From: Methanosuratincolales archaeon
Lineage (GTDB): Archaea; Thermoproteota; Methanomethylicia; Methanomethylicales; Methanomethylicaceae
Assembly: GCA_014361445.1 (NCBI GenBank)
Contig: JACIVQ010000006.1
Span: 1-48,038, forward strand
Direction: 5' to 3'
Length of the DNA: 48,038 nucleotides
In this document: one piece after another, positions 26,221 to 30,291 of the stretch
Layout of the letters: each line of letters opens with the position of its first letter
Numbering within the stretch: position 1 is the first letter of the stretch
Notes under the pieces: generated by a model
Seen by the model: only the letters and a program-made list of their open reading frames with translations
The model's database searches: none
What the model was told of the DNA's origin: nothing
Made by a program: the position numbers and the translations under genes

Positions 26221-26253
26221 TACAAGCTGCCTGACTTGGGTTGGGTCCTCATA

Positions 26254-29200
26254 ATGGTGAGCTTGGACAGGTTCATTATCAAAGAGAAGAAAGCCGAGAA
26301 AGAAGAGCCCGCCCCCTCTCAGCCGAAGAAAAAGCCTGCCCCCTCAAAAAGGATGGAAAAGGAGCGAGAGGAAGAGATCCAAGAGGCTGAGACTGAAGTA
26401 GAGGGAGAGCTAGAAACAGAGGCAGAGGCAGAAATAGAGGCGGAACCGACAGAAGAGGAGATTGTGGAGCGGACGATATTTGAGGCTGAGACTCCGCAAA
26501 ATACTGGCACTCTCTATCTTCTCTCGGTAACCTACAGCGGGACGAAAAATTGTGCCCTCCTTAAACTATACGATCACGAGAGGGGTAAGATCGTCTTCTG
26601 GTACGACAACACAGGTCACAGACCCTACCTCCTAACAGACGTACCTCTTCAGGATCTACTCAATGACAGGCGAGTCGCCTCCCATCCTGGCTTTGACGGA
26701 AACCTCAGTACCGAGGTGGAGAAGTACGATCTGCTCTATGATAGAAAAGTGCGCATGACAAAGGTCGTGGCAAGGGACCCTCTCTCAATCGGCGGTCGCG
26801 GGAGCAGCCTCCGTGAGATACTCGAGAACTCTTGGGAGGACAACATCCGCTACCACGAGTGCTACACATACGACTTGGGGCTTATCCCTGGCTACACGTA
26901 CCGCATTAAGGAGGGTCGACTGGTCAGGGAAGATCGTCAGTTCAACCTAGACGACTTGGAGAACATTTTCAAGGGGCTTCCCTCTGAGCACATGAAGTCC
27001 CTAAAAGAGTGGTTCCCCCTATTTCTTACCCCAGTGCCAGAGTACAGGAGGGTGGCGCTCGACATAGAGGTTGCCACAGAGGCAGTTGACCGGATACCCG
27101 ATCCCAGCGTCGCAAGGAACCAAGTCATATGTGCATCGCTTGTAGCCTCGGACGGTCTTAACAGAGTCCTGCTCCTGAAAAGGTCAGGGACCGAGGAGGG
27201 CCTGAGACCCCCGGACCTACCCAGCAATGTCGAACTATCCTACTTCGACGACGAGCTCTCTCTGATCAAGGAGATCTTCAAGTACCTCCTCGAGTACCCC
27301 ATCGTCCTAACTTTTAACGGTGACAACTTTGACCTCCACTACCTTTGGAGGCGAGCACAGGTACTGGGCATGAAGAAGGAGGAGATCCCCATCCTGATGG
27401 GGAGAGAGATCGCACTTCTTCCCACAGGCATTCACATTGACCTATACAAGTTCCTGCACAACCACGCCATTCAGGTCTATGCCTTCGGCAACTCATACAG
27501 GGAGGTGACACTTGACTCGGTAGCAAGCGTCCTCCTCAACATTAAGAAGATCCCCATAGAAAAGACTGTCACCGAGCTGGACTACCTTCAGCTGGCGTCC
27601 TACTGCTACAGGGATGCCTTCATAGTCCTCAGACTCTCCTCCGAAAACTCGAGCCTGATCATGAACCTCGTCACCATGATCATGAGGATCTCCCGGATGT
27701 CTATGGAGGATGTGACCCGCCAGGGCATATCCAGATGGATCAGGAGCCTCTTCTTTTACGAGCACAGGGCGAGGAATTACCTCATACCCCGCCAGAGTGA
27801 CATCGAAGCCATGAAAGGCGAAGCCTCCACAACAGCCATAATAAAGGGCAAAAAATACCTCGGTGCCATTGTAATCAAGCCTGAGTCGAACGTCTACTTT
27901 GATGTGGTCGTCCTGGACTTTGCAAGCCTTTACCCCAGCATTATCTCCAGGTGGAACCTGAGCTACGAGACTGTGAGGTGCGTACACGAGTCTTGCAAAT
28001 CTAACCTCGTCCCAGACACTCGGCACTGGGTCTGCACGAAGAGGATCGGGCTGATGTCGTTGATCATAGGACTTCTTAAGGACGTGAGGGTAAGGTGGTT
28101 CAAACAGAAGTCGAAGGATCCCTCTCTCTCGCCTGAGGAACGGAACTGGTACAAGGTCGTCCAACAAGCATTGAAGGTGTTTTTGAATGCGTGCTTCACG
28201 GGTGACACAGATATACTCACAACTGATGGCGTTAAGAACGTCAAAGATGTCAAAGTCGGCGACAGAGTCATAAACGTCAATCCAGAGACCCTCGAGCCAG
28301 AAGTGGATGAGGTCGTTGAAACTCAAGAGTTCGACTACAACGGTTACCTCATACACTTCGAGAATAATAGATGCGCCGATCTCATAGTTACCCCCGAGCA
28401 CAGGTTTCTCGTCAAAGACCGGAAGAATGCAGTTAAGTTCGTGGACGCGGAGGCGATATACAACACAGGAGGACTGATAATACCAAGACTCAGAACATCC
28501 CTTAAACAATCTTCGAGGCACTTCTCATTCTTGGAATTTGGTAAAGAAGAGAAACTGGGGCTTGTTGTAAAGCTCCCCGCAGCAAAAACAGGGCATTTGG
28601 ACAACGAACATGCCGAGCTGAGGTCATTCCTGAAGAATCTAAATGGGTGCTGCGAGATAGACTCGAATGCGTTCTTCATCCCCAAAATAGACCAGATATC
28701 TGAAGAGACTCTTGACGCAATTATTGGGCTCGGTGGTATGCCATATCTAGCAAAATTCGATTCGGATCCAAAACTTGAGGATGCAAAACTCCTCCCGGTC
28801 AGGGTGGATCACGAACTTTTTGCCAAACTTTGTGGCTGGATCGTTTCAAAAGGAGGCCTTGAGTTAAATGGCAAGATGATTAATTCAAGTGGTGAGAGCC
28901 GCGGATACGACCTCCACTTCCACCTTAACCTCCACACTAACGGTTTTGGAGGGAAAGGTCTTGCGAGCTCAGACATTCAAGACCAGATCGAGGATGCACT
29001 CAATCAGATTAGCATCGGCTACAGCGTTGGCAAGAGGGGCTTCACGATCTCAAATGAAGTATTTTGCAGATGGGTAAGTAAAAACTGCTATACTGATGAA
29101 AAATGCGAAAAATGCCCACACGCATACTGTTCTCATAGGAAAAAAATTCCAAATGCAATAATGGAAGCAAGTGCGTCCACAATAAAATCATTCTTGGAGG

Positions 29201-30291
29201 CGCTCTGCGCTGGGGATCTGGCAAAAAGACCCAATATTTACTCGACACACAGCGCAAAACTTACAAACCAAATTTTAGTCCTACTGGCGAAGCTGGGTCA
29301 CTCATCAAAGCGCAGCTATGACCGAGGGCGCGATTTATTCAGGGTGAGCTGGAGAAACACTAACCAGCATATAGACCGCTGGAGAAAGGTCAAGATCCCG
29401 TATAACGGGAAGGTTTACTGCGTCACGACGAAGAAGAATCACACGGTCTTTGCCGGTCGTAATGGCAAACTAATCCCTTGCGGGCAGTCTTATGGCGTCT
29501 TCGGGGCTGAAATCTTCCCCCTCTACTGCCTCCCCCTCGCGGACAGCACCACAGCGATTGGTCGCCACATAATAAGGGAGACCATCAACAAGGCTAAGGA
29601 GCTTGGGGTCTCAGTCATATACGCCGACACAGACTCCCTCTTCCTCTACAAGCCAACAAAGGACCAAATCTTGCAGATACAGGAATGGGCAGAGTCCAAG
29701 TTCGGAATAGATCTCGAAGTCGACAAACGCTACACCTTCGTTACATTCTCTGGTAGGAAGAAGAACTACTTGGGGGTGATGGACACCGGCGTGGTTGACA
29801 TAAAGGGACTAATGGGCAAGAAGCGGAACACCCCTGTCTTCATAAAACTCGCCTTCAACGAGATGACGCAGGTCTTGAGGGACATCAAATCACCTCAAGA
29901 CTTCGACAGGGCAAAGACCAAGATCAAGGAGATAGTCCAGAACTGCTACGCAAACCTTAAGAACCGGAGATACACCCTCGACGAACTCGCCTTCAGGGTC
30001 ATGCTCTCGCGCCCAGTGGAGAGGTACCAGAAGACCACCCCTCAGCACGTCAAGGCAGCAAAGCAGCTCAAGGAAAAGGGCAAGGAGGTAAAGCCCGGCG
30101 ACATAATCTCATATGTCAAGGTTCAGGGTCCGATTGGGGTCAAGCCCGTCCAGCTTGCCAGGGTTGACGAGGTCGATGTCGACAAGTACGTCGGTCACAT
30201 CGAAACAACCTTCGGGCAGGTTCTCGATGCCCTCGGGATCGAGTTCGACGAGATAGTCGGAATAAAGAAGCTGGAGTTCTTCACCCGTTAG
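26254..30291 (+). CDS. polB: Family B DNA polymerase interrupted by an intein
   Basis: The 1345-residue precursor contains a 913-residue polymerase. After a Lys/Glu-rich low-complexity N-terminus (about 80 residues) come the 3'-5' exonuclease motifs: ExoI ALDIEVATE (Asp near 270), ExoII TFNGDNFD, ExoIII YCYRDAF. The polymerase motifs are A, DFASLYPSI (near 555); B, KVFLNA/SYG; and C, YADTDS (near 1123). A 432-residue intein (see separate entry) splits motif B. Removal rejoins LNA to SYGVFGAE, so activity needs splicing. ATG 26254 is chosen over TTG 26236. This is the replicative/repair PolB of the crenarchaeal type with a long N-terminus. Confidence 0.95.
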   Translation: MVSLDRFIIKEKKAEKEEPAPSQPKKKPAPSKRMEKEREEEIQEAETEVEGELETEAEAEIEAEPTEEEIVERTIFEAETPQNTGTLYLLSVTYSGTKNCALLKLYDHERGKIVFWYDNTGHRPYLLTDVPLQDLLNDRRVASHPGFDGNLSTEVEKYDLLYDRKVRMTKVVARDPLSIGGRGSSLREILENSWEDNIRYHECYTYDLGLIPGYTYRIKEGRLVREDRQFNLDDLENIFKGLPSEHMKSLKEWFPLFLTPVPEYRRVALDIEVATEAVDRIPDPSVARNQVICASLVASDGLNRVLLLKRSGTEEGLRPPDLPSNVELSYFDDELSLIKEIFKYLLEYPIVLTFNGDNFDLHYLWRRAQVLGMKKEEIPILMGREIALLPTGIHIDLYKFLHNHAIQVYAFGNSYREVTLDSVASVLLNIKKIPIEKTVTELDYLQLASYCYRDAFIVLRLSSENSSLIMNLVTMIMRISRMSMEDVTRQGISRWIRSLFFYEHRARNYLIPRQSDIEAMKGEASTTAIIKGKKYLGAIVIKPESNVYFDVVVLDFASLYPSIISRWNLSYETVRCVHESCKSNLVPDTRHWVCTKRIGLMSLIIGLLKDVRVRWFKQKSKDPSLSPEERNWYKVVQQALKVFLNACFTGDTDILTTDGVKNVKDVKVGDRVINVNPETLEPEVDEVVETQEFDYNGYLIHFENNRCADLIVTPEHRFLVKDRKNAVKFVDAEAIYNTGGLIIPRLRTSLKQSSRHFSFLEFGKEEKLGLVVKLPAAKTGHLDNEHAELRSFLKNLNGCCEIDSNAFFIPKIDQISEETLDAIIGLGGMPYLAKFDSDPKLEDAKLLPVRVDHELFAKLCGWIVSKGGLELNGKMINSSGESRGYDLHFHLNLHTNGFGGKGLASSDIQDQIEDALNQISIGYSVGKRGFTISNEVFCRWVSKNCYTDEKCEKCPHAYCSHRKKIPNAIMEASASTIKSFLEALCAGDLAKRPNIYSTHSAKLTNQILVLLAKLGHSSKRSYDRGRDLFRVSWRNTNQHIDRWRKVKIPYNGKVYCVTTKKNHTVFAGRNGKLIPCGQSYGVFGAEIFPLYCLPLADSTTAIGRHIIRETINKAKELGVSVIYADTDSLFLYKPTKDQILQIQEWAESKFGIDLEVDKRYTFVTFSGRKKNYLGVMDTGVVDIKGLMGKKRNTPVFIKLAFNEMTQVLRDIKSPQDFDRAKTKIKEIVQNCYANLKNRRYTLDELAFRVMLSRPVERYQKTTPQHVKAAKQLKEKGKEVKPGDIISYVKVQGPIGVKPVQLARVDEVDVDKYVGHIETTFGQVLDALGIEFDEIVGIKKLEFFTR
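28192..29487 (+). mobile_element. Intein in DNA polymerase motif B with degenerate LAGLIDADG domain
   Basis: 432 codons in frame. Block A: CFTGDTDILTTDG with nucleophile Cys1. Block B: VTPEHRFLV with the TxxH. Two LAGLIDADG-like helices follow: KLCGWIVSKGG, where the catalytic acid is Lys, and FLEALCAGDLAK, where the acid remains. A cysteine cluster (CEKCPHAYCSH) between them may bind zinc. Block F: KVYCVTTKKNHTVFAG. The end is IPCGQ before Ser of the extein, so the terminal residue is Gln, not Asn, and the penultimate is Gly, not His. Self-splicing is inferred from the intact polymerase halves; homing activity is probably lost. Confidence 0.93.

Follow-up and report, generated by a model that had tools for sequence, protein, structure and literature searches.

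A Gly-Gln terminus that looks normal for a little-described family of archaeal PolB1 inteins, with apparent endonuclease decay in a Methanomethylicota copy

The 48,038-nucleotide stretch analyzed here (the window) is the entire contig G000:C56 of a Methanomethylicota archaeon, and its family B DNA polymerase gene (PolB1) is interrupted in motif B by an intein ending in Gly-Gln rather than the canonical His-Asn. Gly-Gln looks like the normal end of a little-described intein family, and the homing endonuclease of the window copy looks to be decaying. Judging from the sequences, we consider it likely (probability roughly 0.8) that this is a working class 1 intein belonging to an archaeal PolB1 motif-B allele for which Gly-Gln is the normal C-terminus.

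The original prediction placed an intein in motif B, between LNA and SYG, and the site held up. Translation of positions 28192-29490 gave CFTGDTDIL...GRNGKLIPCGQ followed by Ser, i.e., 432 amino acids and the +1 residue, so the predicted Cys-Gly-Gln end was read as proposed. The extein flanks are KVFLNA and SYGVFGAE. In Thermococcus, the inteins close to motif B are offset by one residue, at N/S instead of A/S. A close PolB orthologue was present in 18 genomes of the family, with the intein in seven and a clean empty site at the exact insertion point in 11. The suggestion that the intein may be fixed is thus unsupported, and one of the empty genomes (G003) lies inside the host genus. In a Pfam search the DNA_pol_B match was interrupted by the intein, and Intein_splicing scored 26-30 bits, under its 35.8-bit cut-off. 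The NCBIfam model intein_Nterm was above cut-off for the window intein (29.1 vs 24.5 bits) and matched all 23 inteins at this site described below; intein_Cterm matched 16 of the 23 with E values up to 1 and had no listed match for the window copy. Sequencing error was ruled out because the CGQ end and Lys220 also occur in an independent genome, G001.

Inteins at the same site were found in seven of 151 related genomes, all within the host's family, and in 16 more among 400 genomes of the class holding Thaumarchaeota Centralia_MAG_53 (G412). All 23 end in Gly-Gln (CGQ in 7, VGQ in 15, IGQ in 1). The Gln codon is CAG in 18 copies and CAA in five, and all four Gly codons are used. Thirty-three residues are invariant, among them C1, T67, H70, C410, H417, G431, and Q432. 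Gly-Gln was kept in the copies without an endonuclease (169 and 177 amino acids), which also retain all splicing blocks, in a 262-amino acid copy with the domain mostly deleted, and where both endonuclease acids are gone (G724, G538). Extraction of the 23 copies required GQ, and a pattern permitting N or Q returned GQ only for L094-L109. A PolB C-extein match at E ≤ 1e-40 was present in 365 of the 400 class genomes, and among the long frames in the matches listed no archaeal same-site intein with another ending was found. The long frames outside the Gly-Gln set, among those matches, were G086/G465, at the SLYPSII site, and G416, whose match begins at query residue 37, consistent with an insert near YGD/TDS. 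Separately, a second insert in the same PolB gene occurs at YGD/YSD before S(V) in L009 (G005), L095, L108, and L109, ending HN/TDS in L009 and KN/TDS in L095, so several PolB genes carry two inteins.

The window intein has the class 1 features C1, T67 and H70 (block B T-x-x-H), S+1, precise in-frame insertion, and empty alleles in relatives. Q432 followed by Ser makes it Gln-terminated, and the canonical block G with terminal Asn and penultimate His is absent from it and from the 22 other archaeal copies at this site. It is not class 3, since C1 is present and Phe72, Cys410, and Cys430 stand where the Trp-Cys-Thr signature (B:12, F:4, G:5, as defined in PMC5050341) is needed. The class 1 route fits because C1, S+1, the block B Thr/His, and the block F His are all present. 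Splicing would begin with an acyl shift at Cys1, followed by transesterification onto Ser+1; Gln432 would then cyclize to a glutarimide, where Asn would yield a succinimide. The His of block F, H417, would probably take on the task otherwise shared by a penultimate His, and ligation of the exteins would give active PolB. The original prediction proposed altered chemistry, and Gln cyclization without a penultimate His does follow from the sequence, but this holds throughout the allele and is no private oddity.

Precedents exist for each half of this terminus. The PolII (DP2) inteins of Pyrococcus abyssi, P. horikoshii, and Methanoculleus marisnigri are also class 1 with C1 and a terminal Gln, and Gln-ending PolII inteins splice experimentally (PMC4031507, PMC8175363, PMC8229266), slowly in the case of P. 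abyssi and M. marisnigri (PMC4031507). They differ in polymerase and site, those of P. horikoshii and P. abyssi are mini-inteins, and the former ends in His-Gln (H165-Q166, PMC8229266). The Chilo iridescent virus ribonucleotide reductase (RNR) intein, from another host gene and likened to ours by its native C-terminal Gln alone, splices better with Gln than with Asn (PMC4031507). The same source classes Gln-ending inteins as class 1 with an altered step 3 and puts functional inteins with a non-His penultimate residue at ~5%, where restoring His helps some and impairs others; by that treatment the canonical Asn/His end is a common, not a defining, class 1 feature. The class 1 phage intein of Bethlehem gp51 (RDF) has Gly as its native penultimate residue and splices to completion, and changing this Gly to His slows it, so that His is dispensable there; it differs in residing in a phage gene, and terminal Asn cyclization is described for the class 1 inteins of that paper (PMC5050341). 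By analogy with PMC4031507 and PMC5050341, splicing from Gly-Gln is likely, whether fast or slow. A 2014 paper listed PolB1 inteins, which belong to the same host gene family, from Nitrososphaera gargensis only (PMC4104785). In openly licensed PubMed Central (PMC) papers we found no description of a Gly-Gln allele at the PolB1 motif-B site and no laboratory splicing of any of its members. The original prediction named, as grounds against it, that CGQ is the normal terminus of a known functional subfamily; the family-wide Gly-Gln bears this out as to family, but in these papers "known functional" is not supported. Terminal Gln and the lack of His have each been described before, whereas their unvarying pairing throughout an allele with a complete series of endonuclease decay apparently has not.

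A noncanonical terminus and a partly decayed endonuclease would also be expected of a dead intein, with a precursor that never splices and a polymerase that is either lost or functional unspliced. This is very improbable, as the insertion splits DNA_pol_B, the nucleophiles and the residues that assist them do not vary among the 23 copies, and every splicing block survives the loss of the endonuclease. The exteins of G000 and G001 also have ratios of nonsynonymous to synonymous substitution (dN/dS) of only 0.044 (N-extein) and 0.026 (C-extein). We likewise regard as unlikely a conditional intein, in which slow splicing is gated by redox state or temperature, for example through a disulfide of C430 or C410 with C1. 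Three Cys do occupy catalytic-block positions, and C410 and C1 are invariant, but 16 of the 23 copies have Val or Ile before Gly-Gln in place of C430, and CGN is frequent among related inteins of other genes, so this Cys does not belong to the PolB host in particular. The suggestion of conditional splicing thus went unsupported, and a redox switch was rejected as the principal explanation since C430 is not kept outside the Methanomethylicota.

The half-dead homing domain of the original prediction was borne out for the window copy, with Lys in place of the acid in LAGLIDADG motif 1 (K220), Asp kept in motif 2 (D342), and a real Cys/His cluster between them (C299, C305, C308, C313, H315). Among the 23 copies, only the three from intein-bearing members of the host genus have this cluster. 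The K220 codon is AAA, and the related genome G002 reads SEG with GAG. Across the 20 copies retaining motif 1 the residue is Glu in 16, Lys in two (G000, G001), and Gly in two (G724, G538), and because of this Glu majority the ancestral residue was evidently Glu. The motif-2 Asp is present in 16 copies and is Gly in G019, G724, and G695; the aligned column is Ser in G412 and G538, and motif 2 is missing in G007 and G005. Both catalytic acids persist in 14 of the 23 copies, not including the window copy. Domain loss is furthest advanced in the mini-inteins of G007 (169 amino acids) and G005 (177), followed by G695 (262).

Between the two Lys-bearing genomes, endonuclease dN/dS was 0.277 (95% bootstrap 0.196-0.387) and splicing-domain dN/dS 0.106 (0.046-0.202). 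For G635 and G700, which have both acids and a similar synonymous divergence (dS), the corresponding values were 0.119 (0.076-0.177) and 0.050 (0.020-0.103). Remaining genome pairs were uninformative, with dS saturated or very small. Because the G000/G001 value exceeds that of the both-acid pair yet stays <1, constraint on the endonuclease, as read from the sequences, has loosened without vanishing. We infer that the change of Glu220 to Lys predates the G000/G001 split and would leave the enzyme unable to make normal double-strand breaks. An endonuclease still alive, with the motif-1 Lys leaving a nicking, DNA-binding, or structural role under selection, is a less probable account, though not a negligible one: dN/dS is below 1 and both Lys-bearing genomes retain the Cys/His cluster, but the ratio is ~2.3 times that of the both-acid pair, and other copies have lost the acids or the entire domain.

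The intein has probably been passed on mainly with the host gene and would now persist through clean splicing. In the host (extein) tree of 17 genomes (G001 omitted), presence and absence require at least five changes, vs 5.1 for shuffled labels, and the empty-site G003 is sister to the intein-bearing G002. The intein tree joins the host-genus copies first and then G007. Between G000 and G001, dS was 0.51-0.56 for the intein, 0.50 for the N-extein, and 0.31 for the C-extein, and the similarity of the intein and N-extein values points to descent with the host gene plus losses, not recent homing between these two genomes.

Among the closest inteins inserted elsewhere, the terminus was readable in 17; 16 of these finish in Gly-Asn and one in Ser-Asn, and two further Cys-Gly-Asn ends were read beside the 17. 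Twenty non-allelic stretches were examined; L131, L142, and L143 had no readable terminus, and extra pattern matches in L128 and L129 were host protein. These archaeal Gly-Asn inteins (in RNR, helicase, the PolB SLYPSII site, and others) are the closest hidden Markov model neighbors of the allele and share its VYC/VWC style of block F and penultimate Gly, but they are Asn-terminal and inserted at other points. Since the missing penultimate His is common to this wider group, the change from Asn to Gln alone sets the PolB1 allele apart. The PolB of G389 carries two inteins (SWE/C...GN/S and YGD/S...HN/T) and is empty at the motif-B site.

A scan of viral contigs using the alignment of all 23 sequences yielded 33 loci, where an earlier scan of viral contigs had given no matches; a search of phage records returned weak partial matches only, in 10 records. 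Gly-Gln ends were read in epimerase-like L159 and L160, terminase-like L162 (L163 yields the same C-terminal stretch), and PolA L164 and L172. Other readable viral block G ends included Gly-Asn in L165/L166 and L180 and His-Asn in L189 and L190. A viral PolB, L158 (1264-5127), is interrupted at the matching motif-B position (VVNS/C...IPN/CYGVFG) by an intein that ends in Pro-Asn and retains both endonuclease acids. In a tree of 35 rows, one side of a branch (support 90/93, not starred) was made up of the 23 archaeal inteins, and adding those of viral PolB and epimerase gave a starred group (100/98); deeper relations are unsure because long branches meet elsewhere in the tree.

Several of these observations weigh against Gly-Gln as the normal end of a working intein. 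The 23 copies share ancestry, so 23/23 represents far fewer than 23 independent events, and the Pro-Asn end of L158 means that Gln is not required at the matching site. An endonuclease dN/dS of 0.28, well below 1, leaves a domain that may retain some role. Confidence in the AlphaFold C-terminus is also low, with a predicted local distance difference test score (pLDDT) <50 at residues 422-432; the last residues are of low confidence in both models (mean pLDDT 70.8 for the full intein and 65.2 for the mini-intein), and we therefore make no claim on active-site geometry. The models match intein and LAGLIDADG folds. The best structural match is PI-TkoII (2cw7; Z 18.8, root-mean-square deviation (rmsd) 7.2, 336 aligned), a polymerase intein endonuclease that likewise combines splicing and LAGLIDADG domains, at 16% identity. 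Residues 206-393 match I-DmoI (1b24; Z 14.6, rmsd 3.0, 152 aligned), and through these two matches the predicted model has the two-motif LAGLIDADG fold.

Gln-ending and His-less inteins have so far mostly been single odd cases, interpreted as transitional. In this allele Gly-Gln is invariant while the endonuclease runs from both acids, via one or two lost, to deleted, a natural series on whether Gln cyclization can be a stable and efficient solution. Tentatively, Gly-Gln might be an adapted end state, with an active site tuned for glutarimide formation without a penultimate His. Such a lineage would take in the inteins of archaeal PolB1 and of viral epimerases, having moved between archaea and viruses, and perhaps, independently, those of viral terminases and PolA. 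If so, replacing the terminal Gln with Asn or the penultimate Gly with His would make splicing slower or uncouple cleavage. The natural 169-177-amino acid mini-inteins are practical test material.

Table 1 Features of the window PolB gene and its intein.
Feature	Position	Strand	Remarks
PolB precursor open reading frame (TACK-type PolB1), 1351 amino acids	26236..30291	+	First codon TTG; an ATG a few codons downstream may be the true start
Intein, 432 amino acids, C1...G431-Q432	28192..29487	+	From translation and relatives' empty sites
Block A, CFTGDTDILTTDG	28192..28230	+	Nucleophile C1 invariant, 23/23
Block B, DLIVTPEHRFLV	28378..28413	+	T67 and H70 invariant, 23/23
LAGLIDADG motif 1, LCGWIVSKG, K220 in place of Glu	28828..28854	+	
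Cys/His cluster C299-X5-C305-X2-C308-X4-C313-X-H315	29086..29136	+	Between motifs 1 and 2
LAGLIDADG motif 2, FLEALCAGD, D342 retained	29191..29217	+	
Block F, VYCVTTKKNHTVFAG	29413..29457	+	C410 and H417 invariant, 23/23
Block G, GKLIPCGQ	29464..29487	+	G431 and Q432 invariant, 23/23
+1 Ser, C-extein nucleophile (SYGVFG)	29488..29490	+	Cys instead in 3/23 relatives

The N-terminus of the PolB (window 26236-26520) is a long charged extension rich in Glu, Ala, and Lys, ahead of the first conserved part. PolB1 as the sole replicative polymerase of the host genus was rejected, as DP1 is present in 4/4 genus genomes and a C-terminal part of DP2, the PolD large subunit, lies on G000:C38. The DP2 N-domain was not found in any of these four genomes (G000-G003), which may reflect an assembly break, a split gene, or loss. 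Elsewhere in the host genome, L002 (G000:C37:595-3858), an IscU/NifU-like gene for an Fe-S scaffold, carries an intein with the canonical His-Asn end; its junctions are GNPV/CVLPDT...LALHN/CGDLM, and it adjoins the CGD motif.

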